From positions 310,001 through 374,000 of the forward strand of contig JANVFP010000003.1 of NCBI GenBank assembly GCA_027919835.1: 64,000 bases of DNA, read 5' to 3'. Below, one piece after another: positions 26,154-50,526 of this stretch; within the stretch, counting starts at the first letter, position 1; each line of letters opens with the position of its first letter. The DNA comes from Lentinula raphanica. Taxonomy: Eukaryota; Basidiomycota; Agaricomycetes; Agaricales; Omphalotaceae. Both the position numbers and the translations under genes were made by a program. Below the pieces are notes generated by a model. That model worked only from the letters and a program-made list of their open reading frames with translations. It was not told the origin of the DNA and made no database searches.

Positions 26154-26613
26154 CACCTCAACCTCACATCAATTGACTTATATAAGAATGCCAAGCACGA
26201 TCGCATGTGGCATTCATGTACGAGTCAAACATGCTGTTCCCCACTATGTGCCAATAATTCCTTCAATATTGTCAGATATTTCAGATTTAGAAGGGGTCCA
26301 GAGGCTTCATAGACCCATCATATGTAGTAGGTAATTGTTCGTAAGTTGTATCAGCCGAAGTGTTGCCGTTGTCTGAGCGTTAATTGCCATCCCGCCCATT
26401 CTCATGACTTCAACTGTGAGAATCTCCCTTGTCAACGTTTGATTCCCGCCTCCCGCCTTTGATTCCGCTGGCGCTAAAACTCCTACTGGCGCTAATGTCT
26501 TTCTCATGACCTCAACTGTGAGAATTTCTTTGTCAACACTCAAATTCCCGCCTCCCGACTTTAATTCCACTGGCGCTAAGATCCCGCTGGCGCTAAAGCC
26601 ACTCGTTCAATTC
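26154..26613 (+). repeat. Left terminal inverted repeat of the KDZ transposon
   Basis: It matches the reverse complement of 50067-50526 over 460 bp with about five substitutions. The inner part is a tandem pair of imperfect units of about 102 bp (26401-26502 and 26503-26605). It contains four copies of CTGGCGCTAA at 26468, 26486, 26570 and 26587, which are likely transposase-binding sites (inference). Confidence 0.93.
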
Positions 26614-28265
26614 TAAAACGTCTCGACTCTCGACTCAACTTTCATTCAAAACATCTCTACGTGTTTTCTACCTTGTAAACTCGTAATGCCGAAGGCACGA
26701 CGAATGAACTCGGTCCAGGTTGCTGTTGGTGGTGGTAGGAGGGGCGGTCCTATGGTGAAGACAACGGTGGGAGTTAAGAAGTTAGAGGAATATCGTCGCG
26801 CAGTCAAGGACACGTACCAACAAGCGATGGATGGTACGTCTCACTGGCTTTGGCTTCCATATATCATCTTACACCCTTACCCATTTCACTGTTCACAGGG
26901 CTTACCCATAGCTCTCAGCAAGTTCTTCATTCCCTCGCTGGTTCATCATTGGATCCGCCTCCTCCCTTCGAGATGGATGTGGGTGAATATGGACTGCCGG
27001 AAGTCGATGAAGCGAACGACCAAGGCAATAGTGGAGACATAATACATGATGTTGCGAATCTCATGCAATTTAGTCGGTGAGTCTTTGTAGCATCGAAGTT
27101 TGTGCGTACATTCATTGTACCCTACAAGATATACAAGTTTTCGCAAACGACTCGACGGACGAACGTGGGCGGAACGCCTCAGACAAAATGCCGCAAACTG
27201 GAAGCCACACCTTGAATCCATGACCGACATGTACATGAAGTGGAAGTATCACGATCCACCCAACGTTGTCACCTTTCAGGAAGCCACCGCCTCTCCAGCT
27301 GTTGATGGTTGGGACTTCGATATTAATGTGATTGACCTACATACCCTCGCCCGCGTCGCAATCATTCCACGGGATAGTGAAACACCGGTCGCTGTAGCTC
27401 TTGTGCAGGCTGGGTATCTTGGGACGACGCCTGTGAATCCCTCTGTTGCAATTGCCCTACGTACCCTAGAACTATTCTATTCTTTACGCTTGTTCAAACC
27501 ATCGTTCAGCGTCGAAGCTTTTGCGAAAACCATCTGTCACACTCTCGGAGTAAGGTTCTGTCATTCAATTGCACCCAATTTCTGACATTCATTCATTAGG
27601 TTCCATATCGCCGGATGTATCGTACACATCTTTCTGATGCGTTTGATATCTATCTCACCCTTAAGCGAAAAGTTGATGCTCGTGTTGCCAAAGAATTAGG
27701 GCGCGACACTCCAAACTATCGTGTTCTGCACAGCTGCCCTCCATGTAATTATAAGGTAAAGATCCTGTTCTATTCTTCTTCTTCATACCTACACTGAACC
27801 TTTGGTCAGCTCGAAGGCGAACCTTCTCTTGTTTTTGAGCGAATGTTTGTCATCGATGGAAACAATTCACTCAAACGGCTCAAGTCCGTCGGGAATCGTC
27901 AGGTAGCCGACACACGAGAATTCCACGGCAGTGATTATTATCTTGGCACCGAATATGTGGACCAATTCCGTAATGAAGTCAAGGCGAAGTCTGCCGACAC
28001 TCGGGCTCGAACAGCTACAGGTGAAGAACACGCTGATGATGAGTGGGTCAATGAAGACACCGGAGATCCCACCGACGGTTCTACGCCCCAGGACCGTTTG
28101 TCTCACTGCACTGATAACTGGAAGGCGAGCTCTGCGGAATCAAAAAAGCGGATGTGGGACGGGTTCGAAGAATCTGGCATATTCGCGAGTGCATGTCGAC
28201 ATGGCTTCATCCTATGGCTTTGCGATATGATCCGCAGCGGTGAACTGTACGCATGCTGAGCGCTG

Positions 28266-28272
28266 ATTTCTT
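28266..28272. repeat. 7-bp target duplication of palindromic element 1
   Basis: ATTTCTT precedes the element and is repeated at 31378-31384. Confidence 0.85.
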
Positions 28273-31200
28273 CAGCTGATACTGTAAAGCTTTTGTAAAA
28301 AGACCTGATGAGTTATCCAGGAGCTTTTGAAAATAGTTGTGACGACACAGAGGGGGCTCCGGAAATGGCTCCGGGGGGTGGGCATGCCTGTCACCACCTG
28401 TCACATCTGACCTATATTTACTGTTTTGGGTAATTAATAATTATCCAGATATTAAATAAGCGGTACATTTGTAAAAAATCCTGATAAACTATAAAAATTC
28501 AAAAAAACCCAAAAAAACCTAATTAGGTCAAATCGGGGTATGTAAACAAAATAGCCTTATATGGTAAAAAATGCTGTAGGATCTATCTAGGTGCTAAAAA
28601 TAGCCAAAAAAATCACTAAAAATGCTAAAAATATGTAGGGATGGTATATAGCCTATTGCAGATCCAGGCATCCGAAAATTACCAAAAAAGGAAATTTTTG
28701 ATGATGATGTCATCTTGTAGCAAAAAATCTGAAAAAAATCCTAAAAATAGTCAAAAAATTCAGGGGTGCCTTGTTGGCCCTGAAAATGCAAAATAAAAAA
28801 AATACGCGACAAGTGTAAAAATTTTTGTTACTCCAAATCATACCAAATCCACTATATAGTCAGTATATATAATGTATATGCTATATTTAGCATCCTAGTA
28901 CCCTCATTGGGCTAAAAATAGAACTTAATCTCATCTGGTAGCAAAAAATCTGAAAAAATCATAAAAAATACTCAAAAAATTTAGGGGTGCCTCATTGGCC
29001 CTGAAAATGCAAAATAAAAAAATTTACACGACACAATTGAAAAACAACATCATTCCAAATCTTATCAAATTTACTATATAGTTAGTATATATTATGTATA
29101 TACTATTTATAGCATCCCTAGTACCCTCAATCACTTATATCACTCAAGAATCCTACCAAACTGACAACATTGAGTAAATGTAATGTACATGGTATTTTTA
29201 GCACACCTAGTACCCTTAAAGCTCAGAACAATTTATATCACTCAATATGTTCAGTATACTCAGTACTCATCACATTTAACACACTAAAACTCGGAACAGT
29301 ACTTATATGTATCATACTTAACACAGTTGGCAATGAAAATACTCAAAACAGTGTTATCAGTCACTATACTTAATACACTTAACAGTCAAAAAGTCGGAAT
29401 AATGTTACTTGATATACATAACACACTCATTGTTATACTACAACACACTTATAACAACGAGTTTTGGGTGCTTATGGGTGCTTATTTGGTATTTTTGAGT
29501 CGAAATTCTTTAATAGCACACTCAATAATTTTTGTGTGGGGTTTATACTGTGTAAGGATGTTGTTTATATCATACTACACTTGATACAATTTGGAGAACT
29601 CAAGATTACAGCCTGTGGGGCTGGCTATATTGTGATCTTTTGTGATATAACAGTGTTTTATGTAAATGTCAGTGCATACACCCATGTTGTGAAGTCAAAC
29701 TGCGACTGGGTCATGGAAAGAGTCCTCCTACAACCTATTCCATGCTAACTCTATGTAATACAGCCAAGAGATCTGTAATGGGGGTCATTGAATATGACAT
29801 CTATTCTGACATGTAGGTGTAGACATCTATAGTGTACATGAAACATGTACATATATATCACAGAGTCCAATAGTCATAGTGAGTATCTGAACCATGTCCA
29901 GACACTTCTAGTAGACTGTAGGAGTCATTCCTTCATGAACCACTATCAGTATACTTGCATTACATGGACATATGCATTGACATTTACATAAAACACTATT
30001 ATATTACAAAAGATCACAATATAGCCAGCCCCACAGGCTGTAATCTTGAGTTCTCCAAATTGTATCAAGTGTAGTATGATATAAACAACATCCTTACACA
30101 GTATAAACCCCACACAAAAATTATTGAGTGTGCTATTAAAGAATTTCGACTCAAAAATACCAAATAAGCACCCATAAGCGCCCAAAACTCGTTGTTATAA
30201 GTGTGTTGTAGTATAACAATGAGTGTGTTATGTATATCAAGTAACATTATTCCGACTTTTTGACTGTTAAGTGTATTAAGTATAGTGACTGATAACACTG
30301 TTTTGAGTATTTTCATTGCCAACTGTGTTAAGTATGATACATATAAGTACTGTTCCGAGTTTTAGTGTGTTAAATGTGATGAGTACTGAGTATACTGAAC
30401 ATATTGAGTGATATAAATTGTTCTGAGCTTTAAGGGTACTAGGTGTGCTAAAAATACCATGTACATTACATTTACTCAATGTTGTCAGTTTGGTAGGATT
30501 CTTGAGTGATATAAGTGATTGAGGGTACTAGGGATGCTATAAATAGTATATACATAATATATACTAACTATATAGTAAATTTGATAAGATTTGGAATGAT
30601 GTTGTTTTTCAATTGTGTCGTGTAAATTTTTTTATTTTGCATTTTCAGGGCCAATGAGGCACCCCTAAATTTTTTGAGTATTTTTTATGATTTTTTCAGA
30701 TTTTTTGCTACCAGATGAGATTAAGTTCTATTTTTAGCCCAATGAGGGTACTAGGATGCTAAATATAGCATATACATTATATATACTGACTATATAGTGG
30801 ATTTGGTATGATTTGGAGTAACAAAAATTTTTACACTTGTCGCGTATTTTTTTTTATTTTGCATTTTCAGGGCCAACAAGGCACCCCTGAATTTTTTGAC
30901 TATTTTTAGGATTTTTTTCAGATTTTTTGCTACAAGATGACATCATCATCAAAAATTTCCTTTTTTGGTAATTTTCGGATGCCTGGATCTGCAATAGGCT
31001 ATATACCATCCCTACATATTTTTAGCATTTTTAGTGATTTTTTTGGCTATTTTTAGCACCTAGATAGATCCTACAGCATTTTTTACCATATAAGGCTATT
31101 TTGTTTACATACCCCGATTTGACCTAATTAGGTTTTTTTGGGTTTTTTTGAATTTTTATAGTTTATCAGGATTTTTTACAAATGTACCGCTTATTTAATA

Positions 31201-31377
31201 TCTGGATAATTATTAATTACCCAAAACAGTAAATATAGGTCAGATGTGACAGGTGGTGACAGGCATGCCCACCCCCCGGAGCCATTTCCGGAGCCCCCTC
31301 TGTGTCGTCACAACTATTTTCAAAAGCTCCTGGATAACTCATCAGGTCTTTTTACAAAAGCTTCACAGTATCCTGTG
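28273..31377. mobile_element. 3.1-kb palindromic (foldback-like) DNA element, copy 1
   Basis: Two inverted arms of about 1.41 kb (28273 to about 29685, and about 29967-31377) surround a unique centre of about 280 bp. Ends are CAGCTGATACTGTAAAGC on the left and, in reverse complement, CACAGGATACTGTGAAGC on the right. A 7-bp duplication (ATTTCTT) flanks it. The sequence is very AT-rich, with runs of A and T and the subterminal tract GGCTCCGGGGGGTGGGCATG. It has no coding capacity; small mirrored frames in both arms are artefacts of the palindrome. It is therefore a non-autonomous element that needs a transposase from elsewhere. It lies inside a KDZ transposase intron, 26 bp after the splice donor. 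Confidence 0.9.
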
Positions 31378-31384
31378 ATTTCTT
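31378..31384. repeat. 7-bp target duplication of palindromic element 1, right copy
   Basis: ATTTCTT, identical to 28266-28272. Confidence 0.85.
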
Positions 31385-31685
31385 ATCACCTATACACTGA
31401 TCACTTGTTTATCTCGCAGTGCAAAATATCCTCTCGCCATTGTTGCCAAGGCTCTCGAAGTTTTCGATGGGCAATGGCTACTCGGTTATGACATAGGATG
31501 CAGCTTCGGTCATACCATCGACCGTAGTTCTCTGGGACCTGAGTTCAAGGCCAAGGAATGCCGCACCTGCGTCAATGCATTCCATGGGTACTCACACAAC
31601 GCTGCATGTCAACAAGTCAATCATCCCAACAACATTGTCGGCATGGGTCTCGAAGACCTCGAAACTCTGGAACGCATTTTCTCTC

Positions 31686-32050
31686 TGTAACGGTAGTATT
31701 CGGACTAAGGCTGGAGCCCGCCATTCCGGAGGTACGGAGCTACAGAACAGGGCAAAGGGTTTGGTATGACATATGACATTCACCTCACCTCACATAGTGT
31801 ACTTTTGATATATTCCTCATGTTTTTCCTCACTTTTACTTACATATTTACTTACAAAATCGCACTAGTGGCGTAGTTTCGAGAACACGACCGAGCCTTAT
31901 GCTCGTCGTGCGGTACCGTACTCATAAACAAAGTAGCATTAGCGGGGATCTTGTCGAATCCCCCCCCCTCTTGTATACACCTTTACAGAATAAAGTTTCT
32001 ATCTACTTGACATCGCTCGATTCTTCATCACGCCGACTCCAGCCTCTACA
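31686..32050 (+). repeat. 5' LTR
   Basis: Starts TGTAACGGTAGTATTCGG and ends CAGCCTCTACA. It matches 38536-38899 except for a C-run length difference near the TTGTATACACC segment. Confidence 0.95.
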
Positions 32051-32052
32051 TC

Positions 32053-32070
32053 TGGAGCCCACCGCGAGCC
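32053..32070 (+). promoter_or_regulatory. Primer binding site candidate
   Basis: TGGAGCCCACCGCGAGCC begins two bases after the 5' LTR. The leading TGG is complementary to the CCA end of a tRNA, as expected for a primer binding site. The tRNA was not identified. Confidence 0.6.
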
Positions 32071-32149
32071 CAAGAAAAACATTCTTGGTTCGAAACTGAC
32101 CACGTCTTCGAACGTTCGTTCCCGAGGTTCTGCACCTGCGAGACGAGTC

Positions 32150-33913
32150 TTGCCTATACGACAAGGAGTTCCGTCGACAAGTCACCGGCAGTTCTTGAAC
32201 ACCGGACGATTGGCCTTCCAGTTCCCGGACGGAAATTCGAGCATCATCGAGCCCGAGTCTGTCTCTGCACTTGACAGCGAACCGAACGTTAGCGCGACTG
32301 TAGACGAACCTACAGAAATCAACATACCCGACAGTAACTTTGTTTCTTTGAATACAACTCCTTTCTCCTTGTCTTCGTTACCATCTTTGACTCCATCGCC
32401 ACCGCCGATCGTTGAACCAAGTACTTTGTCTACCGATATGTCTACTCCACCTCCGCGTCCCGCGACGAAAGGCCCCGCGTATCTTCCTGCGCCCGGATCC
32501 ACGAGAGCACCTGAGAAGTTCCGTGGCGACGGCACTCAGCTGAAATACTTCCTGAAAGAGTTTGAGGGCCATGCCAACGATCAGGAACTTACCGACGAAG
32601 AGAAAGTCCGGTTGGTCTTGAAGTACGTAGACACCCCCACCCGGGAGTATTGGATGACCCTCAAAGGGTACAAGAGAGACGATTGGGCCCAGTTGAAGGA
32701 GGAGCTCTACGAAGCTTACCCGGGATCGAAACAGGGTCATCGTTACACCCGTCGACACTTGAAGAAGCTCGCCAGTGACCATGCCAAGAGGAGGCTCGAC
32801 GATGAGGCCAAGTTCGCTGAGTATTATCACCAGTTTCGTCGAATCGCCGCACGATTGGTTGAAGATGACGAGTTGACCGAGAAAGAGGTGAACCGGTATT
32901 TTTGGCATGGTATTCACAAGGCAGATCGTCGAGAGATTCTGCTCTACATCAGGATGGGCAATACGAACCCTGATTTCAAGACGATTCCTACCGTCGAAAC
33001 CGCTTACAAGATGGGGACACGGATCTTTGAGGATGAGGTGATGGGGATGGATTCTGACGACGAATTGGAGGAAGTAAAGCCCGCAAAGTCGAAGAAATCG
33101 AAGAAGAAGAAACACGTTTCGCCCCCTACGAGCGAGAGCGACGACGACGATGGTGACTCCACAAGCGATAGCGATTCCGAGGTAGACCAGAAGCCTAAAA
33201 AGAAATCGGTTAAGCAGGAGGTCCGTACGAAGATTGTTGAGAAACCCCCTGCTGAGAGCATCGATGATCTTGCTCGCCAACTTCGAGCCTTGAACGTCAG
33301 CGACGTTAACTATGCCGGGGTTTACGCGCAACTTGCGGGGTTTTCTCCCTTTTTGGCCAACACGATTGCTAGTCTTCCAAAGGAGGTTCCTAATGCGACG
33401 ATGGCGGCAACTCCTGCTATGCCCATGGCTCCCTATCCTAACCCTTCGTATTTGCCTGCTTCATACCCCCATCCTTTGTTCCCGCCGCAGATGAACATGT
33501 CGACGTCCCAGCATTATGGCCAGTTTTCTCCTCCGCAGTTTCCAGGTTCTACGAACAGCGTAAACATGTATCAGAATGCCCAAGGATCTCCAGTGACTTA
33601 CCCAAATTCGATTCCGATACAAGGGAACAGATATGGTGGACCCCCTCGAAACGGTCAACGTGGACGTGGACTGCCGAATGGACCCCTTCCTCCACATGTG
33701 TTGTGCTTTTTCTGTAAAGAAAACCACCTTCTTCGAAATTGTACCCACTTGCCAGGGTATGTTCAATCCAATCGAGTCGTGCAGATGGGGCGATGGTTTT
33801 ATTGGCCCGACGGTCATCCTCAAGCTCGTCAGGTTATCCAAGATGATCCGAATACAGGAATAAAAGGTGTTATTGATCGACCTGCTCCTGCGCCTCAGCA
33901 GCCGGGTTTTTGA
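32150..33913 (+). CDS. gag: Retrotransposon Gag
   Basis: Open frame of 587 codons starting in the leader. A Pro/Ser-rich N-terminus is followed by a retrotransposon gag region (KYFLKEFEGHANDQELTDEE; LVLKYVDTPTREYWMTLKGY) around residues 130-300. Then come an acidic/basic Lys/Ser/Asp stretch, a Pro-rich segment and one zinc knuckle near residue 522 (CFFCKENHLLRNC, spacing CX2CX3HX4C, one residue shorter than the usual CX2CX4HX4C). Gag builds the particle and binds element RNA. The stop TGA at 33911-33913 lies directly after a slippery heptamer. The first residues may not be used, because a later ATG is possible. Confidence 0.88.
   Translation: MPIRQGVPSTSHRQFLNTGRLAFQFPDGNSSIIEPESVSALDSEPNVSATVDEPTEINIPDSNFVSLNTTPFSLSSLPSLTPSPPPIVEPSTLSTDMSTPPPRPATKGPAYLPAPGSTRAPEKFRGDGTQLKYFLKEFEGHANDQELTDEEKVRLVLKYVDTPTREYWMTLKGYKRDDWAQLKEELYEAYPGSKQGHRYTRRHLKKLASDHAKRRLDDEAKFAEYYHQFRRIAARLVEDDELTEKEVNRYFWHGIHKADRREILLYIRMGNTNPDFKTIPTVETAYKMGTRIFEDEVMGMDSDDELEEVKPAKSKKSKKKKHVSPPTSESDDDDGDSTSDSDSEVDQKPKKKSVKQEVRTKIVEKPPAESIDDLARQLRALNVSDVNYAGVYAQLAGFSPFLANTIASLPKEVPNATMAATPAMPMAPYPNPSYLPASYPHPLFPPQMNMSTSQHYGQFSPPQFPGSTNSVNMYQNAQGSPVTYPNSIPIQGNRYGGPPRNGQRGRGLPNGPLPPHVLCFFCKENHLLRNCTHLPGYVQSNRVVQMGRWFYWPDGHPQARQVIQDDPNTGIKGVIDRPAPAPQQPGF
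33904..33910 (+). promoter_or_regulatory. Minus-one ribosomal frameshift site
   Basis: G GGT TTT in gag phase fits the X XXY YYZ rule, and the gag stop TGA follows at once. Pol lies in the -1 frame relative to gag. Slippage here would fuse the two proteins. Confidence 0.7.
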
Positions 33914-36900
33914 GTCGCCAAACCGTAGCAGCAGCGGTGGTGACGGTGGAGGCGAATTCGAATGAGGAAGCGAGGGAGGAGTCTGAGGAATCACCGATTG
34001 AGGCGACGAAGAGTGAAGAGGCGGAAGATGAGACGATTGAAGGAGAACATAGTGTTGCGGAGGTTGATGAGGACGAAAGTATTGACGAGGTGGATGCAGG
34101 TGTGGAGCCAGAAACAGTGCGAATCGAGGAGGTTGTAGATGAGGGTGATAGCGACAAGCGATTGGGTGTCGTTCAGGATGTGGATGAGATTGTTGAGGAG
34201 GATGATTATTTTGCGTGGCTTGAAGGGTTTGAGTTGGAGAGGATTGGAAACGCCGAAGTGATGGTGACGACGAGAGCTGGGAAGAAGAAGGCCGAGGTGG
34301 AAGGTGTGAAGAGTGACGATGAAGCTAAAGTGGGGGGGACAAGTCAGACAAAGAAGAACGAGAACGAAAAGGGATCAAGAGACCTACCAGGCGATCTACC
34401 GGCGTTTACTTATGAATCGAAGGCGGAGATTCCGGCGAAGGAGAAGGAGATGTTTGAGAGGATGTTGGATGTGAGAGTCCCAGATGTCACGATTCGTGAC
34501 TTGACTGCCTTGAGCCCAGGCCTTCGTCGAAATTGGATTGATTATACGAAGACCCAACGCGTCCCGACCGTCAAAGTTATGCCTGCGCTCGCGGGTACGA
34601 GTCTTCCTCGGGGGCTGGAATATGTTACGCCGGTTAGGTTGGTGAAAGTCGTTTTGAATGGGAAGGTTTCGGTCGACGCATTGCTCGATGAGGGAGCGGA
34701 ATGCTCGTCTATCAGAGAGTCTGTTTGGGGTCAGTTGGGGATGCCGATGAACGATATGAAGAAGGCTCACATGGCAGGGTTTGGAGGAGAAGTAGTGACG
34801 GCTTTAGGATGTTTGGAGTACCTGGAGATAGCAGTGGAAGGATATCGAACGTGGGGACACGTTTTTGTTGTGAAGGACATCCCGTATGACATGATTTTGG
34901 GGAGACCGTGGCAGAGGTCGTTGAAGTTGTCGAAAGAGGAGGATGCGACCACGGTTCGAATTACGATCCATGATCAGATGGGGTGTTTACCACCAAAGAC
35001 GGTGAATGCTGTTCCCCAGCTAACAGGTGGAAGTATGCGAGAGACGTCGCGACGGATTCGGGAGGCTTGGGAGACGTTGAGGCCGAGTTTGGAAGATGAG
35101 GTGGAAAGTCTTGAGCGGGATGGGCTCGATGGTACCGAGAAACGAGCACGGTACGAGTCCTTGAAGAAACAGGTGGATCATGTGGCACCCGAGGATATAG
35201 ATCCTTCTCCATTTGCGGCGGTTTTTGTCTCATCCACCTATCGAATGGATCCAGTATGCCATACGTTTGCATACAAACGCGTTGCTCAGAAGGTCCAGCC
35301 AATTCCGACCGTCATGCCGGAATACGCGAAGGTGATTCGTAGGTTTCCTGAAGACCCGCTTGCGTCTCTTCCTTCACTCTCTACCCATCCACCTCCTTTC
35401 GACCCTGGCATACGACTTACACAGGAACGCCTGGAGGGACTAGGAATCTTGCAGAATGAATTTTTGTGGCCTCAGGAGCGGCTGTTGATGGCCCAGGTGT
35501 TGAAGAATAACGAACTGGGGATTGCCTGGAACGAGGAAGAGAAAGGGAGGTTTCGTGAGGATTATTTTCCTCCAATCAAGATACCGATGGTAGCTCACAC
35601 ACCTTGGGCTGAGAAAACGCTCCCTATCCCTCCTGGGATTCGCGACAAGGTTATCCAGCTCGTTCGAGAGAAGGTCGCTTCAGGTCTTTATGAGCCCTCA
35701 AATAGTTCGTATAGGTCCCAGTGGTTCGTCGTCGGTAAATCTGATGGAGGACTCCGGATCGTGCACAATCTCAAAAAGCTCAATGCGGTTACGGTTCGCG
35801 ACTCGGGTCAGCCTCCCATTCTCCATCTTTTCGTCGAACAGTGTGGCGGTCGAGGGATTTATTCGGGGATCGACATTATCGCGGGATTCGACCATGGAAC
35901 TCTCCACGAGGACTCGAGAGATCCTACAACTTTCGATACTCCCATCGGAACCTTTCGTCTGGCGCGAATTCCTCAAGGCTGGACGGGGTCGATACCAGTG
36001 TTTCACGGGCATGTCGCGTTCCTCCTTCAAGATGAGACTGAGGTAGCACCAAATTTCGTGGATGATTTGCCGGTTCTGGGTCCGAAGACGCGATACGAGA
36101 TCGAAGGAGGAGGTTATGAAGTCACCAAGGAGAACCCTGAGATTCGACGATTTGTTTGGGAGCACGCCATCGACCTCAATCGTGTTCTTCATCGACTTAA
36201 ACGCGCTGGAGGAACTGTGTCAGCAAAGAAGTTGAAGGTTGCGGTCCCGGAGTTGAAAGCAGTGGGGACTGTCTTTACTTACGAGGGAAGACTCCCAGAT
36301 GAGACGAAGGTCATCAAGATACGAACATGGCCAGTTTGTAGGTCAGTCTCCGAGGTTCGTGGATTTTTGGGGACAGCGGGAGTTCTTCGAGTTTGGATAC
36401 GAGACTTTGCGAAAATTACTCGACCTTTGGTGGACCTCACGAAGAAGGATGTCTCGTTTGGCTGGGACGACCCACATCAAGTCGCGATGGATGAGGTTAA
36501 GGTGGCGGTGTCGAACTGCGAAGCTCTGGTTACCATCGATTACTCATCTCTTCTCCCGGTCATCATGGCCGTCGACTCTTCTTACATCGCCTGCGGGATC
36601 GTTTTATATCAGGATCAGAAGGAAGGGAAGAGAAGACCGTCTCGTTTCTGGTCTATCGCATGGAACGAACGCGAATCCAGATACTCACAAGCGAAAATCG
36701 AACTTTATGGGCTTTTTCGGGCTTTTCACGCGATGAAGATCTATTTGATTGGGGTACGAAAGCTCGTGGTCGAGATGGACGCGTCCTACGTCAAGGGCAT
36801 GCTCAATAACCCTGATATGCATCCTAACGCAGCTATCAACCGTTGGATCGCGGCTATTCAACTCTTCGACTTTGAGCTCAAACACGTCCCTGGGAAAGAT

Positions 36901-38478: not shown

Positions 38479-38522
38479 GAAGTCCCTTCCGAGCGTTGTT
38501 TGAGCGGGGACGCTCAATTCTA

Positions 38523-38535
38523 AGTGGGGGGGAGG
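38523..38535 (+). promoter_or_regulatory. Polypurine tract
   Basis: AGTGGGGGGGAGG lies directly before the 3' LTR and would prime plus-strand DNA synthesis. Confidence 0.85.
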
Positions 38536-38899
38536 TGTAACGGTAGTATTCGGACTAAGGCTGGAGCCCGCCATTCCGGAGGTACGGAGCTACAGAACAG
38601 GGCAAAGGGTTTGGTATGACATATGACATTCACCTCACCTCACATAGTGTACTTTTGATATATTCCTCATGTTTTTCCTCACTTTTACTTACATATTTAC
38701 TTACAAAATCGCACTAGTGGCGTAGTTTCGAGAACACGACCGAGCCTTATGCTCGTCGTGCGGTACCGTACTCATAAACAAAGTAGCATTAGCGGGGATC
38801 TTGTCGAATCCCCCCCCTCTTGTATACACCTTTACAGAATAAAGTTTCTATCTACTTGACATCGCTCGATTCTTCATCACGCCGACTCCAGCCTCTACA
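38536..38899 (+). repeat. 3' LTR
   Basis: It is identical to the 5' LTR at 31686-32050 apart from one base in a C run. It is followed by the TCTC target duplication and the resumed transposase exon. Confidence 0.95.
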
Positions 38900-39905
38900 T
38901 CTCTATCCAATCAGCTTGCCTCTGTCACTCGGTACATGTCATTATATCGACGTCGGCTATTCATTGATCTCTTCTTTCAACAATGGGACCGGGAGAAGTA
39001 CCAGTCGCTCGCCACATTCCTACACAACAACTATGTCCAAGCACTCAAGATCGTCGACGAGGATGCGAGCCGCCTATCTGACGAGTTGACCAAGCTCGAG
39101 CTCACTGTGGACGACATTGAAAACTATTGGAACGAGCAGAAGCAGCATTTTGACTCAATCGAGACCGAGGACACACATGATCATCGTGCGACAGAGTACG
39201 TGAGTCTTCTTCAACAACTACAAGGGGTCAAGTGCGTATCGTCATTATTTCTTACCTGCAACTCGAACTCACAATATTTCCACATGTTCAGGAAGTCGCT
39301 CGAGGCTGGACGCTTTGATCTTCACACCAAAACACCATCGGACTATACGTTCTTGAACGACGCATCCTCCTACAACGTCAAACTCTCACAGACACGCAAG
39401 ATCGAAACCAAACGACAATACCTGAAGGAACAACACAAGGAGCTACTTTTTCAAGTAGTGCAGATGGAGACGCTACTCGATATACAGCGGCGTTGGGAAC
39501 CTCAAGATTCGGAGTATCGTGCAGCACTGAAGTATATGGATGAGCAAAAATATCGAGAGGCGTTGTTGAAGTTGCATCGTTTGGTAGTACAACGGCTATG
39601 GGAACTACATAAGATGAATCTCTCACAAACCGGTACGTTGCTTTCTTTTCTCTGTATGATGTTATTGACGCGTTCGTCATTCTCATAGGCTACAAAATGC
39701 GAACCCATATTGCTCATGCACTTCAAAAACGATCGAAAGCCATTCGCACTGCTGTTGCGACTTACAACGCTGCAGCACTCAACCTTGATCCTCCTCGTCC
39801 AACCGTCGACTGGGCGAAAGTGTCGCACTACTCATTCCTAGATCAATTCGACATCCTCGCTGACACTCGGTACAGTGTTCTAGAAAAGCCCTGGGCTAAG
39901 CCCGT

Positions 39906-39912
39906 CATACGT
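39906..39912. repeat. 7-bp target duplication of palindromic element 2
   Basis: CATACGT precedes the element and is repeated at 43022-43028. Confidence 0.88.
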
Positions 39913-42900
39913 CACAGGATACTGTGAAGCTTTTGTAAAAAGACCTGATGAGTTATCCAGGAGCTTTTGAAAATAGTTGTGACGACACAGAGGGGGCTCC
40001 GGAAATGGCTCCGGGGGGTGGGCATGCCTGTCACCACCTGTCACATCTGACCTATATTTACTGTTTTGGGTAATTAATAATTATCCAGATATTAAATAAG
40101 CGGTACATTTGTAAAAAATCCTGATAAACTATAAAAATTCAAAAAAACCCAAAAAACCTAATTAGGTCAAATCGAGGTATGTAAACAAAATAGCCTTATA
40201 TGGTAAAAAATGCTGTAGGATCTATCTAGGTGCTAAAAATAGCCAAAAAAAACACTAAAAATGCTAAAAATATGTAGGAATGGTATATAGCCCATTGCAG
40301 ATCCAGGCATCCAAAAATTACCAAAAAAGGAAATTTTTGATGATGATGTCATCTTGTAGCAAAAAATCTGAAAAAAATTCTAAAAATAGTCAAAAAATTC
40401 AGGGGTGCCTTGTTGGCCCTGGAAATGCAAAATAAAAAAAAATACGCGACAAGTGTAAAAATTTTCATCACTCCAAATCATTCCAAATCCACTATACAGT
40501 CAGTATATATGATGTATATGCTATATTTGGCATCCTAGTACCCTCATTGGGCTAAAAATAGAACTTGATCTCATCTGGTAGCAAAAAATCTGAAAAAATC
40601 ATAAAAAATACTCAAAAAATTCAGCGGTGCCTCATTGGCCCTGAAAATGCAAAATAAAAAAATTTACACGATACAATTGAAAAACAACATCATTCCAAAT
40701 CTTATCAAATTTACTATATAGTTAGTATATATCATGTATATACTATTTATAGCATCCCTAGTACCCTCAATCACTTATATCACTCAAGAATCCTACCAAA
40801 CTGACAACATTGAGTAAATGTAATGTACATGGTATTTTTAGCACACCTAGTACCCTTAAAAACTCAGAACAATTTATATCACTCAATATGTTCAGTATAC
40901 TTAGTACTCATCACATTTAACACACTAAAACTCAGAACAGTACTTATATGTATCATACTTAACACAGTTGGCAATGAAAATACTCAAAACAGTGTTATCA
41001 GTCACTATACTTAACACACTTAACAGTCAAAAAGTCGGAATAATGTTACTTGATATACATAACACACTCATTGTTATACTACAACACACTTATAACAACG
41101 AGTTTTGGGCGCTTATGGGCGCTTATTTGGTATTTTTGAGTCGAAATTCTTTAATAGCACACTCAATAATTTTTGTGTGGGGTTTATACTGTGTAATGAT
41201 GTTGTTTATATCATACTACACTTGATACAATTTGGAGAACTCAAGATTACAGCCTGTGGGGCTGGCTATATTGTGATCTTTGTGATATAACAGTGTTTTA
41301 TGTAAATGTCAATGCATACACCCATGTTATGAAGTCAAACTGCTACTGGGTCATGGAAAGAGTCATCCTACAACCTATTCCATGCTAACTCTATGTGATA
41401 CAGCCAAGAGATCTGTAATGGGGGTCATTGAATATGACATCTATTGTTACATGTAGGTGTAGACATCTATAGTGTACATGAAACATGTACATATATATCA
41501 CAGAGTCCAATAGTCATAGTGAGTATCTGAACCATGTCCAGACACTTCTAGTAGACTGTAGGAGTGATTCCCTCATGAACCACCATCAGTATACTTGCAT
41601 TACATGGACATATGCATTGACATTTACATAAAACACTGTTATATTTCAAAAGATCACAATATAGCTAACCCGACAGGTTGAATTTTCGAGTTCTCTGAAT
41701 TGTATCTAGAAGAATATGATATAGACAACATCCTGACACAGTATAGAGCCCAGACAAACATTATTGAGTGTGCTATTAATGAATTTCGACTCAAAAACAC
41801 CAAATAAGCGCCCATAAGCGCCCAAAACTCGTTGTTATAAGTGTGTTATAGTATAACAATGAGTGTGTTATGTATATAAAGTAACATTGTTCCGACTTTT
41901 TGACTGTTAAGTGTGTTCAGTATAGTGACTGACAACACTGTTTTAAGTATTTTCATTGTCATCTGTGTTAAGTATAATACATATAAGTACTGTTATGAGT
42001 TTTCATGTGTGAGGTTTGATGAGTGTTAAGTGTACTGAACATATTGAGTAATATAAATTGTTCTGAGTCATCAAGGGTACTAGGTGTGTTAAAAATATCA
42101 TGTACAATATATTTAATACCCCAAATCATTCAGTTTGGTAGGATTCTTGAGTGATATAAGTGATTGAGGGTACTAGGGGTGCTATAAATAGTATATACAT
42201 GATATATACTGACTGTGTAGTGGATTTGGTATGATTTGGAGTGATGTTGTTTTTCAATTGTGTTGTGTAAATTTTTTTATTTTGCATTTTCAGGGCCAAT
42301 GCACCCCTGAATTTTTTGAGTATTTTTTATGATTTTTTTCAGATTTTTTGCTATCAGATGAGATCAAGTTCTATTTTTAGCCCAATAAAGGTACTAGGAT
42401 GCTAAATATAGCATATACATCATATATACTGACTGTATAGTGGATTTGGAATGATTTGGAGTGATGAAAATTTTTACACTTGTCGCGTATTTTTTTTTAT
42501 TTTGCATTTTCAGGGCCAACAAGGCACCCCTGAATTTTTTGACTATTTTTAGAATTTTTTTCAGATTTTTTGCTACAAGATGACATCATCATCAAAAATT
42601 TCCTTTTTTGGTAATTTTTGGATGCCTGGATCTGCAATGGGCTATATACCATTCCTACATATTTTTAGCATTTTTAGTGATTTTTTTTGGCTATTTTTAG
42701 CACCTAGATAGATCCTACAGCATTTTTTACCATATAAGGCTATTTTGTTTACATACCCCAATTTGACCTAATTAGGTTTTTTTGGGTTTTTTTGAATTTT
42801 TATAGTTTATCAGGATTTTTTACAAATGTACCGCTTATTTAATATCTGGATAATTATTAATTACACAAAACAGTAAATATAGGTCAGATGTGACAGGTGG

Positions 42901-43021
42901 TGACAGGCATGCCCACCCCCCGGAGCCATTTCCGGAGCCCCCTCTGTGTCGTCACAACTATTTTCAAAAGCTCCTGGATAACTCATCAGGTCTTTTTACA
43001 AAAGCTTTACAGTATCAGCTG
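39913..43021. mobile_element. 3.1-kb palindromic (foldback-like) DNA element, copy 2
   Basis: Second copy of the element at 28273-31377, 3,109 bp, about 95% or more identical by eye, with long inverted arms around a unique centre near 41310-41620. The left end reads CACAGGATACTGTGAAGC and the right end, in reverse complement, CAGCTGATACTGTAAAGC, so the two end types are swapped relative to copy 1 while the centre has the same orientation. The 7-bp duplication CATACGT flanks it. Host flanks join in frame in the KDZ transposase. The arms here have diverged more from each other near the centre than in copy 1. Noncoding and non-autonomous. Confidence 0.9.
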
Positions 43022-43028
43022 CATACGT
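43022..43028. repeat. 7-bp target duplication of palindromic element 2, right copy
   Basis: CATACGT, identical to 39906-39912. Confidence 0.88.
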
Positions 43029-43533
43029 GAACTCATGATGCAGGTACGACGTGTTTCGCGCGCTCGGGAAGAGATTACCCGGCTGAATATCGAACTGCGC
43101 CGCCTTCACACATCGATCGTTGATGAGGAAAAGCTCTTCACCGACGTTCTCAATCGCCTCACAGCATCATCATCTCCTATGTATCCAGCGGTTTTTGACT
43201 TTGTTGAGCAACGCAGAGCTGTCAATAACCTTCTGCTTGCTCGCATGCAGACCACGTATGCTCTGCCTGGATTCACAGGCATCCCCTACCCTGGCGAACA
43301 TTCTTCACTATCTTCTGATGGGACAGTTCTTCCACCGTTGGCTGCGCCACCTGATTTACAACCAGCCGTCGGAGAAATTCAATCAGGGACTGCGGCTCAA
43401 TCGGACAACGAAGGCGTAGATGAAGACGATGATGAATACATATCGTATGTCAGTGCTATCTCAGACTATCTGTCAAATGTCACAATTTGAAGGCGAGATT
43501 ATTGTATTGTATTCATTCATGTACTAGTAGAAT

Positions 43534-44137
43534 TCAATCAGTTTCTACCCAAAGTCTACGTCGTCCGGCATCAACATCGCGAAGCTCGCGAAGTTTCGCA
43601 TCTTCCTCTCGGAGAGTGAGATGAATAATGTACTCTGCCCGTTCGTGGGCTACACAACGTATCCTGTATAACGTCGCATCTGTGATTGGCCAACCGTTGG
43701 AGCGCGAAGCTCTTTCGATGTGCTCGAGAATGTCGTTGCTGAGGAAGCAAACACAATTAGAGGCAATTGAACCAGTGAAACGTTTGAGCTCACCGGACTT
43801 TGCGTTCAATGGATGGACGAATCTCAGCCATGCGGCGGCGATATTCATTCCGTTCTGCTATACAACTGTCGACATAATGGTCCAGTACGTCGCTCCTGAC
43901 ACGTTCATCAGGGTCAATGGTCTGCAGTATGGCGCTTCGTTCGAGTTCGCCAGTCAGGTAGATATTTTGGTGATCGATATGCGACGGCCAGTGTGCAGGA
44001 CGCTGGAATGGCGGGATCGGCATAGAAGGCCAATTGTAGTCAGAAGGCATGGGGATGAAGCGATGAAAATCAGAGGGGGATTTCTTATAAGTGCTCGCGG
44101 AGGAAGCTTTTGGACCGTCGGGGGTGATTGAATGCAC
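43534..44137 (-). CDS. KDZ cargo protein A, unknown
   Basis: Two exons (44137-43794 and 43738-43534) with a 55-bp GT-AG intron and coherent phase, 182 aa. The N-terminal half has aromatic and Pro-rich segments (YNWPSMPIPPFQRPAHWPSH). The C-terminal half is charged and helical (DILEHIERASRSNGWPITDA; HERAEYIIHLTLREEDAKLR). It is convergent with the transposase, whose stop is 43 bp away. No family is recognised. Since its frame and splice sites are intact inside the transposon, a role in transposition or in controlling the element is possible (inference). Confidence 0.65.
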
Positions 44138-44276: not shown

Positions 44277-44771
44277 TCACTGTGACTTTAGATGTGCACG
44301 TCGCTCTGCCTCCTTTGCTCGCAAATAGTCTCGATTCAGCTCTCTATATGCAGCCTGTGAGAGACGACGAGCAGCCCTCAGTGCTTCCTGCTGCTCCATA
44401 GTATCGGTTTCTCGTTTTCTCTGTCGGCGTTCCCTCTGGTACTGGAGTTTCTTTTCACGGTTCCTAGATAAACTCCTCAGCTCAGCTGACAATGAGCAAA
44501 ATTATTAGTACATGAACAAAAACCTTCGGTAATATTCTCGTTGTCCTTCGCGCCGGGAATGGTACCGTCGAGCATCAGCGCGAGTTGCAATCAAGAACAG
44601 TATGGATTCATCATCGTTGCCCAAAGATCTCAGAAACTCCCGCTCCTCTTCTCCATGGAGTTCCAAGTGGCAATCAGCTGGTGGTCCACGATATTGTTTG
44701 GGCATTTGGGATGCAGCGATGATGCAGCGATGATGGAAAGAGATATTCGTAAGCAACTTGTTGTCAACCAT
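44277..44771 (-). CDS. KDZ cargo protein B, basic helical protein, unknown
   Basis: Two exons (44771-44524 and 44475-44277) with a 48-bp intron that has a TACTAAT branch-like motif and an AG acceptor; phases agree, 148 aa. The N-terminal part has HGEEEREFLRSLGNDDESIL. The C-terminal 80 residues are highly basic and helical (RSLSRNREKKLQYQRERRQR; AARRLSQAAYRELN), like a DNA-binding basic region with a short coiled coil, but no leucine zipper register is clear. A start at the second Met (44705) is possible. Function unknown; DNA or RNA binding is inferred from charge only. Confidence 0.6.
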
Positions 44772-45127: not shown

Positions 45128-46959
45128 CTAATTCCATCCTAACTCTGAAGAAGTAGAAAATAAACTCAAACCCATCTCCCAGCGGCGCCGTTTCTCCTCG
45201 TCATCCCGCCTAGCGTCAGCCGTACTGCGATTCTTCGTATAGTTCTCGAATGTTTGGAATCCATAGTCAACCCAACGGAAAAGTCCCCCGGGGGTGTATT
45301 GAGTGAAAGAGAAACGAGTCTCTTTGTGCTGAATCGAGGTGTTAGAATGTCGGAGCACACCTGAGGGTATCACTATTAGTGAACCGGGGGGGAATTCTAT
45401 GACTAGCTTCAAGTCCCACAAGACCAAGTGGCCCCCCTTTTTGTAGTCATATCGTCCAAGAGCCCATATAGGGCACCACCCGAATGGAATGTTACCGAAA
45501 TCAACGTGAGGAAAACAGACAGTTCTCGGGCCAAAATTAAAGGCCGCGGCTGCGAAAACACTGTTGTCGAAGACTCGACGCAGATCCGAATTGGATTCGA
45601 GTAAAGCGTCGAAGTGCTTCTCATAATAATCGTAAAGGCGCGGGGCCCACACCTTCATAACGCCTGTAACAAAGCCGGACATTCGTTTGAATGCCCAATG
45701 GCCGGCGAGCCGCTTCAATGCTGCGGTGTTGCTAACATTCTGTGACACATTCGCAGGCTCCTACATGCTGGTGATTAGCATGTGCTTACAATTCAACAAA
45801 ATCTTACCGTCATGCCGTTGCCGTAGAGGATACCAGTGGATAGTGCTGGGAACCTGCCTCGGCGGTGATCTTTCTGCTCTGCCGTAAACCTACAGTGCCG
45901 ACGTTCCGTTTTCAAAGCCTTCGTAGCAGCTTGGGTGCAATTTTGCCAGTCTGTGGTTTGAGGTGGTGCAACTAGGATGGTCGTTACACGACCGTCCCCG
46001 TCAACGATTGGGACAGTTTCTCTGTAAGCAATACAAGAATGATTGGCAAGAACAGTGTTGGACAACGAATGCAGGTACTCACCTTGCATCCCACTCAACT
46101 AAACCAAACCCAAACTTCGAATGAGACCCAATGAGATCTAGAAGGGAGTATTCTTGACTGTCGGTCTCAGATTCTGCGCTGCGTAACCCAACATATGCTG
46201 TGGAAGCTACTCTTGCATCCGCGGCAGTGGAGAAGTGGGAGGGGAGTGGCACGGCACAGTCAACGTGTCTTGCAATCGCCGAAGAACGAGGAGAAATAGA
46301 AGCCGCAGTCTTCGCTTCCTCAAGACGTCGCTTCTTCTTGTTCTTTTTGCTTTGATTTTTTGAGTGTCGTTTACGGCTCGTAGGGTTTGAAATGGCAACG
46401 GTTGTAGAAGGGTTCGGCAGTGGAATGGATGAGGGCAAAGGTGAAGATAGCGGGGAGGGGGTAAGGCTTGATAGTGGGGAAAGTGTTTCTTCCCTTATGT
46501 TCTCGATCTGACCGAACAACTCATCTCGTTCATGTTCATACAGCACGACCTCTAACAGTGCATTGGCGAAATCAAAATCGCTGCTTAAAATATAGGAAGA
46601 AACACCTAAGTCCTTCCCTATGCCTGTATAACAATGGAACTCGTCAACCGAGCGAGGAATGCAGTGAACGTCGGCCTCTGCTATGGAGAAACACTGCATA
46701 CCATGGAAAGGATGGCCTCGAATTCCCGTTGCACAGGTATTCGAAGAATCCCGCCGCTTGGATGAGGTCACTCCAATGCAAAGGCTAATGTCCAACTGCA
46801 GAAAGGCAAGCACTTACTGTGATTCAACTTCAGCTTGATTTTCATCTGAAGGAAAAGCACTGTGATCACGAGATCACCTTTTTTATCGATTTTCCAAAAT
46901 CCAGCAACCCCCCATTCCGCAAATTCACAGTGGACGTATAAAAGGTGAAATTCTAGCAT
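45128..46959 (-). CDS. TET/JBP-family Fe(II)/2-oxoglutarate dioxygenase
   Basis: Four exons (46959-46818, 46677-46083, 46021-45808, 45760-45128) with coherent phases give about 527 aa. The C-terminal double-stranded beta-helix has the iron-binding HxD in FPHVDFGNIPFGW (about residues 402-404), the distal His in GVLRHSNTSI (455) and the 2-oxoglutarate-binding Arg in ETRFSFTQYTPGGLFRW (466). The family core GGHLVLWDLKLVIEFPPGS is complete. TET/JBP enzymes oxidise 5-methylcytosine or thymine in DNA. The N-terminal half holds a conserved segment (IPRSVDEFHCYTGIGKDLGV) and a Ser/Pro and Lys-rich linker with a likely nuclear signal (KNQSKKNKKKRR). A longer start at 47004 is possible. It lies inside the KDZ element, the known genomic context of such genes in basidiomycetes. 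Confidence 0.92.
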
Positions 46960-47002
46960 CTGAGTTCCAATTCCCTCTTGCTTTTCTTTCTTCTCTTCCC
47001 CC

Positions 47003-48279
47003 ATGTCAGCTATTCAACAACGCTTTGTATATCTCAACGCCAATGGTGGCAGCTTCCACACTTCGATGTAAGTACTTAGTTTTCTTATCAACAGGAATTT
47101 CTTATCTCACTTTCATCTCCCACAGGCAATGGCGCCGAAGCGGTTCAAATGCTCACCATCTCCCCATTTGCATTCAGGCAAATTCGAATACCCAAGCGAG
47201 GATCATCCTCGAAAACCTTCAACCCTTAGTTACGCAACACGGAAATGCCCCCCTCACTCAGTTCGTTGCGGCGATAACGGCGTCCACCGACCTGCTCAAC
47301 GCTATCGAAGCGGAGTTGTACCGCGAGGAGGGCCTTACACAGGGCACCAGGATCTGGTGGCATGCACAATACGCCACCCACGCTGGAATTTATGAAAGCA
47401 CGTAAGTTATCGGGCTCATCTACCTCAACGCTCGCGCTGATTAAGCTCGGATTCAGCCAAGAATGTCTCGATAGTGTTGACCATTCGAATGCCAATTTCC
47501 AGCGAGCTTTTGGCTTCCGCCGATTTCGTGAGGCACTCTACTCGGCACTCACCTTCGACCTCAACCCTCCTGGCCTCTTGTTCGATTACAACCCACACCA
47601 CAACGCAATTGCCGCTGCTTCGGTTCGTGCGAGCATTTACCCCCACGGAATTATGTCAACGATTCAACCTCCTGCACCCGCGGCAGCTCCTGCGCCCACC
47701 ACTCCTGTTGCACCCGTTGCAGCTCCTGCGCCTGCCACTCCTGTTGCAGCTCCTGCGCCTGCCACGCCTGTTGCACCTGTCGCAGCTCCTGTTCCCATGA
47801 CCCCCGTTGCACCCGTCGTATCTGCTGCCCCTCCGTCGGCTTCAAATATTTCTGCTGTCAATACAGCAACCCAGAGAAGATCCGGCTTGTCGCCTCGCCC
47901 TCATACACCTGATCGCGGGATTATGGGCCAGGGTCTTGTTCCGATGGCGTCTGGTGGCGTTGTAATTTACTCGCCTAGAGTCAATATTTCTTACGGCGAC
48001 ACTCCAACGAAATCAAAGGGAAAGGGTCACGCTCATGCAACCACCAGTTTTCCAGCCGACGGGTTTGGTGACGAGTTCGGTGGTATCGACTGGGTGCGCC
48101 ATTTCTTGTTCTGTCAAAAATTCGACAACGCGGTGATCCAAGGCATCGAGCATTTGCTTGAGGTTGTCGAAGACTGTGAGGAGTTCATTGAGAGTGTCCA
48201 CGAGGGATATGGCAATATCCTTTCTGACGGCACTGCTCTTTTTTTGTATGATCTCTATCACGGTGTAATGTCAAACTGA
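47003..48279 (+). CDS. KDZ cargo protein C with Ala-Pro repeat, unknown
   Basis: Three exons (47003-47067, 47126-47401, 47457-48279), 387 aa, phases coherent. The N-terminal half is globular (VYLNANGGSFHTSMQWRRSG; LVTQHGNAPLTQFVAAITAS; RIWWHAQYATHAGIYES; FQRAFGFRRFREALYSALTF). Residues about 190-245 are a degenerate tandem of APAP-(A/T)TPVAPVA. The C-terminal 80 residues are acidic and aromatic (DWVRHFLFCQKFDNAVIQGI; EHLLEVVEDCEEFIESVHEG). A TATA-like TATAAAAG lies at 46938, 65 bp before the start, inside the first exon of the divergent dioxygenase gene. No domain recognised. Confidence 0.68.
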
Positions 48280-48389: not shown

Positions 48390-50030
48390 ATGGTTCGCCT
48401 GTCATCGTCGAAGAAAGGTCAAGCTCTCGAGCGACACCTTAGCAAAGCTCGGGTTGAAGGACAGTCGAAGCGTCCTTGGCGCTACAGAGTACAACCTCGG
48501 AATGTCAAAAAACTCACTTACCAGGAAAAACTATCGCAAAAGCAGAAACGCTCTAGCGATAGGGCTTTCTACACCAGCAAACTCTTAGCTGTGCAGGCCC
48601 TGATCGTCGAGGAAGCTACAAAAATTCGAGAACTGTGCGGAAAATACACAGTCAAGCAGATCCTCGACGACATATACCAAACGCACCGTTTGAAGTCTCA
48701 TGCGAAACGTGCTGGAATGTTCAATGCGTTCACTAGCTTAGAGATGGCAAAGGTCAATGCAGGCAAGGAAATTTGATTGGACTGTATACTATGTTCACTG
48801 ATTTATGCACAGGTGTGTTGCCGGGAGACAACAAAGAGAAGCTAGCCGACCACATGGATGAGATAGCTGACAAGTGGAAGGCGATGAGCAAGGACGAAAG
48901 GGTCGAAGCCACGAAAGACCATCTCGAGGTCCTCGCAGATAACCGTGTCAATCGAGAACTCGGTCATCATAACGCTTCTCTTGCAGCGTTCCACGATTCG
49001 CGACTGACTGTAGATAGTTGCCAAGAAGCGGTGAGTAACATGGTGTATAGAAAAATCTTCGCTCATTGACCGAGTTGTTGAATAGTTGGCGTGTTTGTCC
49101 GTGCGTACTGGCGACGAGAGTATTTTGATCTCTGTGCACAGTGACGTTTCCCATTTCAACGCCCCGCGTGTTTATGCAACCAGCGATCGTGTCTTCGAGT
49201 TCTTTGCTTTGGCATTCAAGGTTAGGCCAGAGGAATTGGGAAAGAGGATGGAGGGTTACATGTTGTCTGGCATTGAGGGGGTCGTGACCTCATATGCTCA
49301 ACAGCTGCTGAATGAGAAGGCTGCACTAGCGCAGTTGATTCTTGATAAACTTCGTGAGTGGCGTGCTAATTCAACATCGAGTATTGCAACTTACAATTTT
49401 TAAGAACAATGCGCAGGCAAAACGAAGATCTCGAGAATGTTATACACGAATTTCGGAGAACGTATCACTGCCCCACATGGCATTGTCTTGAAGAACTGGC
49501 CACCCGGCATCAAGTTCGTTTGCCCCAGTAGTCTCACGACAGCAGCCGACGTTCGACTCCTTACCGCGTCTTTTCAAAACGATAACACTCACTTCTATAA
49601 GCTGTCGACCTCGGAATACAACGAATGGACTCAGAACCCCAACAGGTTGCTTGAGGCAGAGGGGCAGACTCAGATCACGAGCGACTCACCTCTCAGCGAC
49701 GCCACTACCTCCACCGCAGCACAGCCTACTTCTGATGGAGTCATTGCGACACCTGCCACTAACGACGGGGCAGGAAGTTCCATTACGCCGACTGCTGCTA
49801 CTCCATCCAATTCGGCAGCAACACCTGCCTCTCCAATGGCGTCCGCGGCATCGACATCGAATCCCTTGAATACAACCTTTGTCAATTCCTTTGCAGTGAG
49901 GGGAGAAGATGGGTCAAGTGTTGCGTATGTTCAGAAGAAAAGGAAGCAACGTTCGGATGCTAATAAACCTCGCGGTCCCCGCAAGAAGAGGGCTGTTGCC
50001 ACTGATGTAACGAACACTAGTAGCGTTTAG
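48390..50030 (+). CDS. KDZ cargo protein D, possible HMG-box-like protein
   Basis: Four exons (48390-48762, 48813-49030, 49086-49353, 49417-50030), 490 aa, phases coherent. The first intron is GC-AG (AG|GCAAGG ... TGCACAG). The basic N-terminus is followed by a segment spanning the first intron (FNAFTSLEMAKVNAG, then IADKWKAMSKDERVEATKDH) that has the spacing and helical character of an HMG-box-like region, a weak call. The next part contains SYAQQLLNEKAALAQLILDK and a conserved-looking domain (LYTNFGERITAPHGIVLKNW). The tail is Thr/Ala/Ser/Pro-rich and ends in a basic stretch (KKRKQRSDANKPRGPRKKRA), a likely nuclear signal. It lies just inside the right inverted repeat. A DNA-binding accessory role is inference. 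Confidence 0.68.
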
Positions 50031-50066
50031 TATATAGTTCGTATGTCGAGAAAATGTGACTTCGTT

Positions 50067-50526
50067 GAATTGAACGAGTGGCTTTAGCGCCAGCGGGATC
50101 TTAGCGCCAGTGGAATTAAAGTCGGGAGGCGGGAATTTGAGCGTTGACAAAGAAATTCTCACAGTCGAGGTCATGAGAAAGACATTAGCGCCAGTAGGAG
50201 TTTTAGCGCCAGCGGAATCAAAGGTGGGAGGCGGGAATCAAACGTTGACAAGGGAGATTCTCACAGTCGAAGTCATGAGAATGGGCGGGATGGCAATTAA
50301 CGCTCAGACAACGGCAACACTTCGGCTGATACAACTTACGAACGATTACCTACTACATATGATGGGTCTATGAAGCCTCTGGACCCCTTCTAAATCTGAA
50401 ATATCTGACAATATTGAAGGAATTATTGGCACATAGTGGGGAACAGCATGTTTGACTCGTACATGAATGCCACATGCGATCGTGCTTGGCATTCTTATAT
50501 AAGTCAATTGATGTGAGGTTGAGGTG
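50067..50526 (-). repeat. Right terminal inverted repeat of the KDZ transposon
   Basis: Reverse complement of 26154-26613, with the same four CTGGCGCTAA motifs and tandem 102-bp units. An 87-codon open frame runs through both repeats and is a by-product of this sequence. Confidence 0.93.

Follow-up and report, generated by a model that had tools for sequence, protein, structure and literature searches.

A KDZ-superfamily DNA transposon of Lentinula raphanica carries a TET-like dioxygenase and four conserved partner genes

TET genes of mushrooms multiply together with transposons, and a 64,000-nucleotide stretch of the genome of Lentinula raphanica, a mushroom in the Omphalotaceae (contig C3:310001-374000, hereafter the window) raises the question of what the unit of inheritance is in such a case and what its dioxygenase does. 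Between two long inverted repeats, this stretch holds a KDZ transposase gene, a TET/JBP-like dioxygenase gene, and four further genes, here called B, C, E, and F. All searches for copies were made within the same genome (assembly of 49.06 Mb in 75 contigs), and they define the unit by its ends, an empty site, and several copies. In its native form, it measures approximately 11 kb between long terminal inverted repeats (TIRs) and codes for six proteins, or for five should B and C form a single gene: a KDZ transposase, a dioxygenase with an HxD...H...R signature and Asn five residues after the His of this motif (His+5), and four partners. Our preferred explanation, which we hold to be rather probable, is that it represents a cut-and-paste DNA transposon of the KDZ superfamily, the dioxygenase of which, together with the partners, counters methylation marks on the element.

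Inverted repeats were found at 26154-26622 and 50058-50526 (469 bp, 98% identity); over the 460 bp given in the initial annotation, they are 98.9% identical with 5 mismatches. The outer ends of the element read CACCTC...GAGGTG, and the octamer TTGGCAGT directly abuts them on both sides (Table 1). Using the joined window flanks as query, we furthermore identified a paralogous site with a single TTGGCAGT and no element (94% identity over 397 columns); the match spans the right flank and extends only 22 bp to the left of the junction, a stretch that includes TTGGCAGT. The 8-bp duplication and the unoccupied paralogous site therefore establish a genuine insertion with an 8-bp target-site duplication (TSD). 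Each window repeat also contains four copies of TGGCGCTAA (26469-26596 and 50084-50211), which is absent from the 3 other repeats examined (C13 left, C7 left, and C2a right); these copies are possible family-specific binding sites of the transposase.

The inverted repeat was then used as a query against the genome, which yielded four other elements or parts of elements (C13, C2b, C7, and C2a; Table 1). A perfect 8-bp duplication of its own was found at 3 insertions, namely TTGGCAGT for the window, TAGTTATT for C13, and TCATGGGC for C2b. The initial annotation had proposed a comparison of gene content among such copies, and this did not reveal a family otherwise devoid of cargo; the dioxygenase and its accompanying genes recur. 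For this comparison, stop-to-stop frames of at least 30 codons from the window element were compared with the copies, and gene models were obtained by a conservation-guided spliced search. In 4 of 5 copies (the window, C7, C2b, and C13), the genes follow one order, KDZ(+), B(-), C(-), dioxygenase(-), E(+), F(+), or the mirror image of it, while C2a retains the KDZ side, B, C, and the dioxygenase end, with no match to the remaining genes reported in its first 4.3 kb. All six gene models of C13 are open, that of the dioxygenase with an uncertain first exon.

Protein identities to the window copy (C7 and C13, respectively) amount to 75 and 69% for the dioxygenase, 72 and 62% for F, 75 and 54% for C, 72 and 51% for B, and 59 and 52% for E. 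As synonymous change is saturated in pairs with C13, the ratio of nonsynonymous to synonymous substitution rates (dN/dS) was taken from the window-C7 pair (dS 0.9-2.0), resulting in values of 0.088 for the dioxygenase, 0.091 for F, 0.13 for C, 0.20 for B (for which the C7 sequence comprises the first exon only, 86 residues), and 0.215 for E. The five cargo genes are thus under purifying selection. The proposal that the four further genes (given as 43534-44137, 44277-44771, 47003-48279, and 48390-50030) are conserved partners is borne out by the retained order and by their dN/dS of 0.09-0.22. The inverted repeats are probably constrained as well, since their outer 328 bp are 84% identical between the window and C7 while 52-70% of synonymous sites differ. 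With regard to the copies themselves, C7 and C2b have 13.5 kb in common at 99.3% identity, including the right flank, while their left sides differ, and the left duplication of C7, GACATAAT, recurs at the right end of C2a, a pattern suggestive of an exchange between two element copies near contig ends or of an assembly join.

The residues that the initial annotation had named for the dioxygenase were all located, with HxD within 45491-45517, the distal His within 45338-45352, and the Arg within 45293-45316; their roles as HxD...H iron triad and 2-oxoglutarate (2OG)-binding Arg were assigned from known TETs. Asn at His+5 and Cys at His+11 are invariant in an alignment of 70 homologues, chosen among 120 listed of 325 found (positions counted from HxD without gaps and without a residue-level structure alignment). 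The nearest fold to the predicted structure of a close relative is that of TET proteins, with CcTet of Coprinopsis cinerea (8jkk, 7w5p, 7vpn) as the best match, yet at 12% identity. According to this model, the dioxygenase has the double-stranded beta-helix fold of 2OG-Fe(II) enzymes, with TET proteins as its nearest structural neighbors. Sequence and profile searches returned no TET chain among the PDB matches of the dioxygenase, CcTet being missed at E<=10, and Pfam Tet_JBP remained below its cut-off (14.8 vs 34.9 bits). We read this Tet_JBP shortfall as a limit of the sequence model; the fold test was positive, and 16 of the 70 chosen homologues matched Tet_JBP at E<=1, the best at 1.2e-6. 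At least two TET/JBP-like gene sets coexist in the genome, as it contains 28 Pfam Tet_JBP matches (5 over cut-off), 2 of which overlap the 94 element-type dioxygenase matches.

The claim of a KDZ transposase likewise holds. PF18758 (KDZ) matches the C13 copy with E=2.8e-76 (256.4 bits, cut-off 26.6), and the window element contains two separate PF18758 matches, both over cut-off. Motifs that we take to be the catalytic ones of the transposase are present at 27843-27881, 31478-31516, and 31643-31687. A match to CxC1 stayed below cut-off (17.7 vs 26.9 bits). With PF18758 over cut-off, TIRs, and an 8-bp TSD as in Zisupton and Cryptococcus KDZ1, the element belongs to the KDZ superfamily. The window copy itself has no unbroken transposase gene, and the transposase alignment contains stops or frame changes in C7 and C2b, some of them introns.

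The window copy spans 24.4 kb, compared to 11-12 kb for copies without large nested inserts, because two 3.1-kb palindromes and a Ty3-type long terminal repeat (LTR) retrotransposon lie inside its transposase gene. The term "composite" transposon, under which the locus was first annotated, was therefore abandoned: one TIR pair bounds one element carrying nested insertions. Identity between the LTRs (99.7%) and between palindrome arms genome-wide (99-100%; 40 arms scored of 889 candidates, 31 places) suggests that the three nested insertions are recent. Both palindromes are AT-rich with CA..TG ends and 7-bp duplications, and, since these ends and this duplication length agree with those reported for Kyakuja, they may be non-autonomous KDZ passengers. 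On C21, a TET-like gene has, judging from coordinates, a further palindrome copy between its two halves, and the same applies to a KDZ gene at C1:626k and to an F gene on C4.

As for the partners, Arg and Lys account for 31 of the 123 residues of C and 24 of the 153 of B. The gene-model script fused these two genes, directly in C7 and via a 5-bp exon, judged unlikely, in the window and C13; we count two genes, like the initial annotation, although they may be a single spliced one. A role in binding nucleic acids or in assembling complexes is probable for B and C. In a relative of F from C41, an HMG box was matched with 17.8 bits (cut-off 25.4), while the corresponding stretch of the window F gave no HMG match. 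The profile of the F stretch reached Gcf1p, an HMG-box protein, with E=0.067, behind two ribosomal eL13 chains (E 0.0006-0.001). For the E stretch, which has no Pfam match, the top PDB profile match was the RNase HI chain 1qhk, the N-terminal domain of yeast RNase H1, at a nonsignificant E=0.21. Full-length profiles of E and F retrieved only chance or low-complexity matches from the PDB.

Linkage between these genes was assessed genome-wide from 150 listed of 158 KDZ matches, forming 108 places, all 94 TET-like matches, forming 90 places, and 13 F places hand-picked from 31 exon-level matches. A listed KDZ place lies within 10 kb at 26 of the 90 TET-like places, with 3.9 expected from the covered fraction, a rough expectation as transposons cluster. 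Of the 13 F places, 12 have a TET-like place within 10 kb, as would 3.6% of the genome, and 8 have a listed KDZ place within that distance; C4 supplies two of these 13, its F gene seemingly being split by a palindrome, which results in 11 of 12 by locus. The sole F place with no TET-like gene within 10 kb is C7:1272462. The 10-kb rule misses the window's own dioxygenase, owing to the nested inserts, and likewise those at C27:293k, C34:139k, C50:181k, and C4:685k. Furthermore, KDZ, dioxygenase, and F occur in the same relative arrangement at the more distant places C41, C19, C7:832k, and C26, with gene E also at C41 and C19 and a weak gene B match (E=0.061) between KDZ and dioxygenase at C41. 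Relatives of E and F were seen directly in a stretch from C41 (L070).

Taken as a counter-defense, the system could operate as follows. Acting on the repeats, the transposase would mobilize the element by cut and paste, and the dioxygenase would oxidize 5-methylcytosine (5mC) that the host has laid on the element's own DNA. The HMG-like F, and possibly E via a domain binding RNA:DNA hybrids or double-stranded RNA, would bring the dioxygenase to the element. Demethylation, or the masking of 5mC as 5-hydroxymethylcytosine (5hmC), would then maintain expression of the transposase gene or access to the repeats. It is the activity on methylation, the targeting, and the benefit to the element that we infer here. 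From the TET2-like Asn at His+5, little or no activity on N6-methyladenine (6mA) is predicted. An extended version, in which the five cargo proteins assemble into a single DNA-modification complex encoded by the element, is tentative, and we rather doubt it: this multi-subunit counter-defense would comprise a 5mC-specific TET that falls into neither of the two published classes compared, AG-Kyakuja and PE, F and E aiming it at the element's own repeats or nascent transcripts, and B and C in structural roles.

Several points weigh against a methylation-countering role. The assignments of HMG (F) and RNase H1 N-domain (E) come from sub-threshold matches, with eL13 ranked above the HMG protein for F. 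The structure model of E is poor (predicted local distance difference test score of 41, with 71-86 in the C-terminal helical blocks). Protein-database relatives of E and F number 4 each, all from L. raphanica, in a search blind to distant relatives. The family 2OG-FeII_Oxy_3 is touched by 24 of the 70 chosen dioxygenase homologues, compared to 16 for Tet_JBP. Two places, C20 and C8, have a weak F match that lies on the strand opposite to that of KDZ and dioxygenase. Moreover, no listed KDZ place is present within 10 kb of 64 of the 90 TET-like places, and the enzyme is therefore not dependent on KDZ. Finally, high 5hmC and 5-formylcytosine over transposons are associated with silencing in Laccaria and, at high levels, in Coprinopsis (PMC8889193, accessible part), which counts against a simple de-silencing role.

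The main functional rival holds that the four partners are transposition factors, involved in end-binding, synapsis, or target choice like the helper proteins of other multi-gene transposons, and that the dioxygenase alone concerns methylation. F contains an HMG-like stretch (HMG boxes bend DNA), Arg and Lys are abundant in C, and all four partners share the element with the transposase in 4 of 5 copies, which makes this a real possibility, if not a probable one. F, however, keeps company with TET-like genes (12 of 13 places) more than with KDZ (8 of 13), and the mobile Cryptococcus KDZ elements are drawn with a KDZ/CxC1 transposase (PMC12810828, accessible part), so that partners are not obviously required. 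That the oxidized marks instead contribute to silencing or taming the element, or are of use to the host, would agree with the association of these marks with silencing at Laccaria and Coprinopsis transposons; we consider it unlikely, as the mobile unit has retained the dioxygenase and its dN/dS is low between diverged copies, a pattern consistent with element-level selection. Passenger host genes trapped by chance between two inverted repeats might account for only 26 of 90 TET-like places being near a listed KDZ place, yet genes, order, and orientation are the same in copies that differ at more than half of their synonymous sites, and three insertions each have their own TSD; contradicted by this synteny, chance cargo was rejected as very improbable. 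Although the span is twice the usual length and rich in other repeats, the matching TSD, the empty site, and copies of 11-12 kb at other places, the ends of which are related, leave practically no credence for two repeats from separate elements and support the single unit of the initial annotation.

The element lies inside a local duplication, with related stretches containing similar reading frames on both sides (window 23300-26150 and 50535-52285), and a 282-bp tandem repeat of 3.7 copies (window 54867-55902) falls mostly inside a 526-codon open reading frame.

Table 1. Features of the window element (window coordinates) and of its other copies in the genome.
Feature	Position	Strand	Remarks
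Paralogous empty target site, one TTGGCAGT, outside element	23368..23762	+	match of joined flanks
8-bp TSD TTGGCAGT, left	26146..26153	.	flank comparison
Left TIR, 460 bp, begins CACCTC	26154..26613	+	two ~100-bp internal repeats, 4 copies of TGGCGCTAA
KDZ transposase gene, split by three nested insertions	26688..43490	+	pieces match PF18758 and C13 transposase
AT-rich palindromic (foldback) element 1, 7-bp TSD ATTTCTT	28273..31377	.	in KDZ intron, judged against C13
Ty3-type LTR retrotransposon	about 31686..38902	+	protease, reverse transcriptase, RNase H, integrase, in that order; LTRs 99.7% over 368 columns
AT-rich palindromic element 2, 7-bp TSD CATACGT	39913..43021	.	in KDZ exon; its two unlike ends swapped relative to element 1
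Gene B, 153 residues, two exons	43534..44050	-	no Pfam family; conserved among copies
Gene C, 123 residues, two exons, Arg/Lys-rich	44280..44705	-	no Pfam family; possibly one spliced gene with B
TET/JBP-fold dioxygenase, three exons (45128-45760, 45808-46021, 46083-46770)	45128..46770	-	start codon and first exon uncertain
Gene E, 387 residues	47003..48279	+	possible RNase H1 N-domain-like stretch, low-complexity Pro/Ala middle, helical C-terminal part
Gene F, 494 residues	48390..50030	+	HMG-box-like stretch and conserved C-terminal part
Right TIR	50067..50526	-	pair to left repeat
8-bp TSD TTGGCAGT, right	50527..50534	.	flank comparison
Copy C13	11.1 kb		TIRs 363 bp; TSD TAGTTATT on each side
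Copy C2b	C2:2099626-2114996, 15.4 kb		TSD TCATGGGC on each side; inserts within its repeats
Copy C7	C7:1528284-1540171, 11.9 kb		left and right 8-bp flanks unlike; insert in right repeat
Copy C2a	C2:1-10190		near contig start

The association as such has precedents. TET/JBP genes are reportedly linked to basidiomycete KDZ elements, some of which are said to encode further proteins including a divergent HMG domain (Iyer et al. 2014, PNAS), and gene F is probably this divergent HMG protein. TET genes within KDZ and other transposons, as well as the anti-silencing idea, have been published (Kojima 2025, PMC12730594, cited here and below for its accessible part). The TET+ Kyakuja/Zisupton elements described there resemble the Lentinula element in combining a KDZ transposase with a TET/JBP dioxygenase in one element, in their Agaricomycete hosts, and in their CA..TG ends, and Zisupton shares its 8-bp TSD. 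Kyakuja, in contrast, has 7-bp TSDs and no TIRs, compared to 8 bp and TIRs of 363-460 bp here, and its AG-type TETs have Gly/Ser and Asp at the positions of CcTet residues 331 and 337 (Gly331 and Asp337 in CcTet; PMC11040006, accessible part), where the Lentinula dioxygenase has Asn and Cys by a gap-free count from HxD. Membership in TET+ Kyakuja in the sense of Kojima 2025 was thus rejected, given the 8-bp TSD in 3 insertions, the presence of TIRs, and the absence of AG-type residues. Partner genes of KDZ elements receive no treatment in the accessible part of PMC12730594, whereas the Lentinula element has four.

Among other KDZ elements, KDZ1-KDZ3 of Cryptococcus neoformans (PMC12810828, again the accessible part) are alike in their KDZ transposase, a length of approximately 9-11 kb, TIRs of 139-241 bp, and TSDs of 4-8 bp (8 bp for KDZ1), and they are mobile, with 4-8-bp duplications and long repeats. 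They are described there with KDZ and CxC1 domains and no dioxygenase is named, while the CxC1 match of the Lentinula element is below cut-off. A literature search that was thin on subscription journals found no paper on the element in Lentinula or on its four partners. As far as this search reached, the complete Lentinula element, its gene set with selection for each cargo gene, the F-TET linkage, and a dioxygenase not fitting the described Kyakuja residues are new. The notion of a TET gene near a transposon thereby becomes a defined gene set, together with the prediction of an enzyme active on 5mC but not on 6mA, the targeting of which would depend on its partners.

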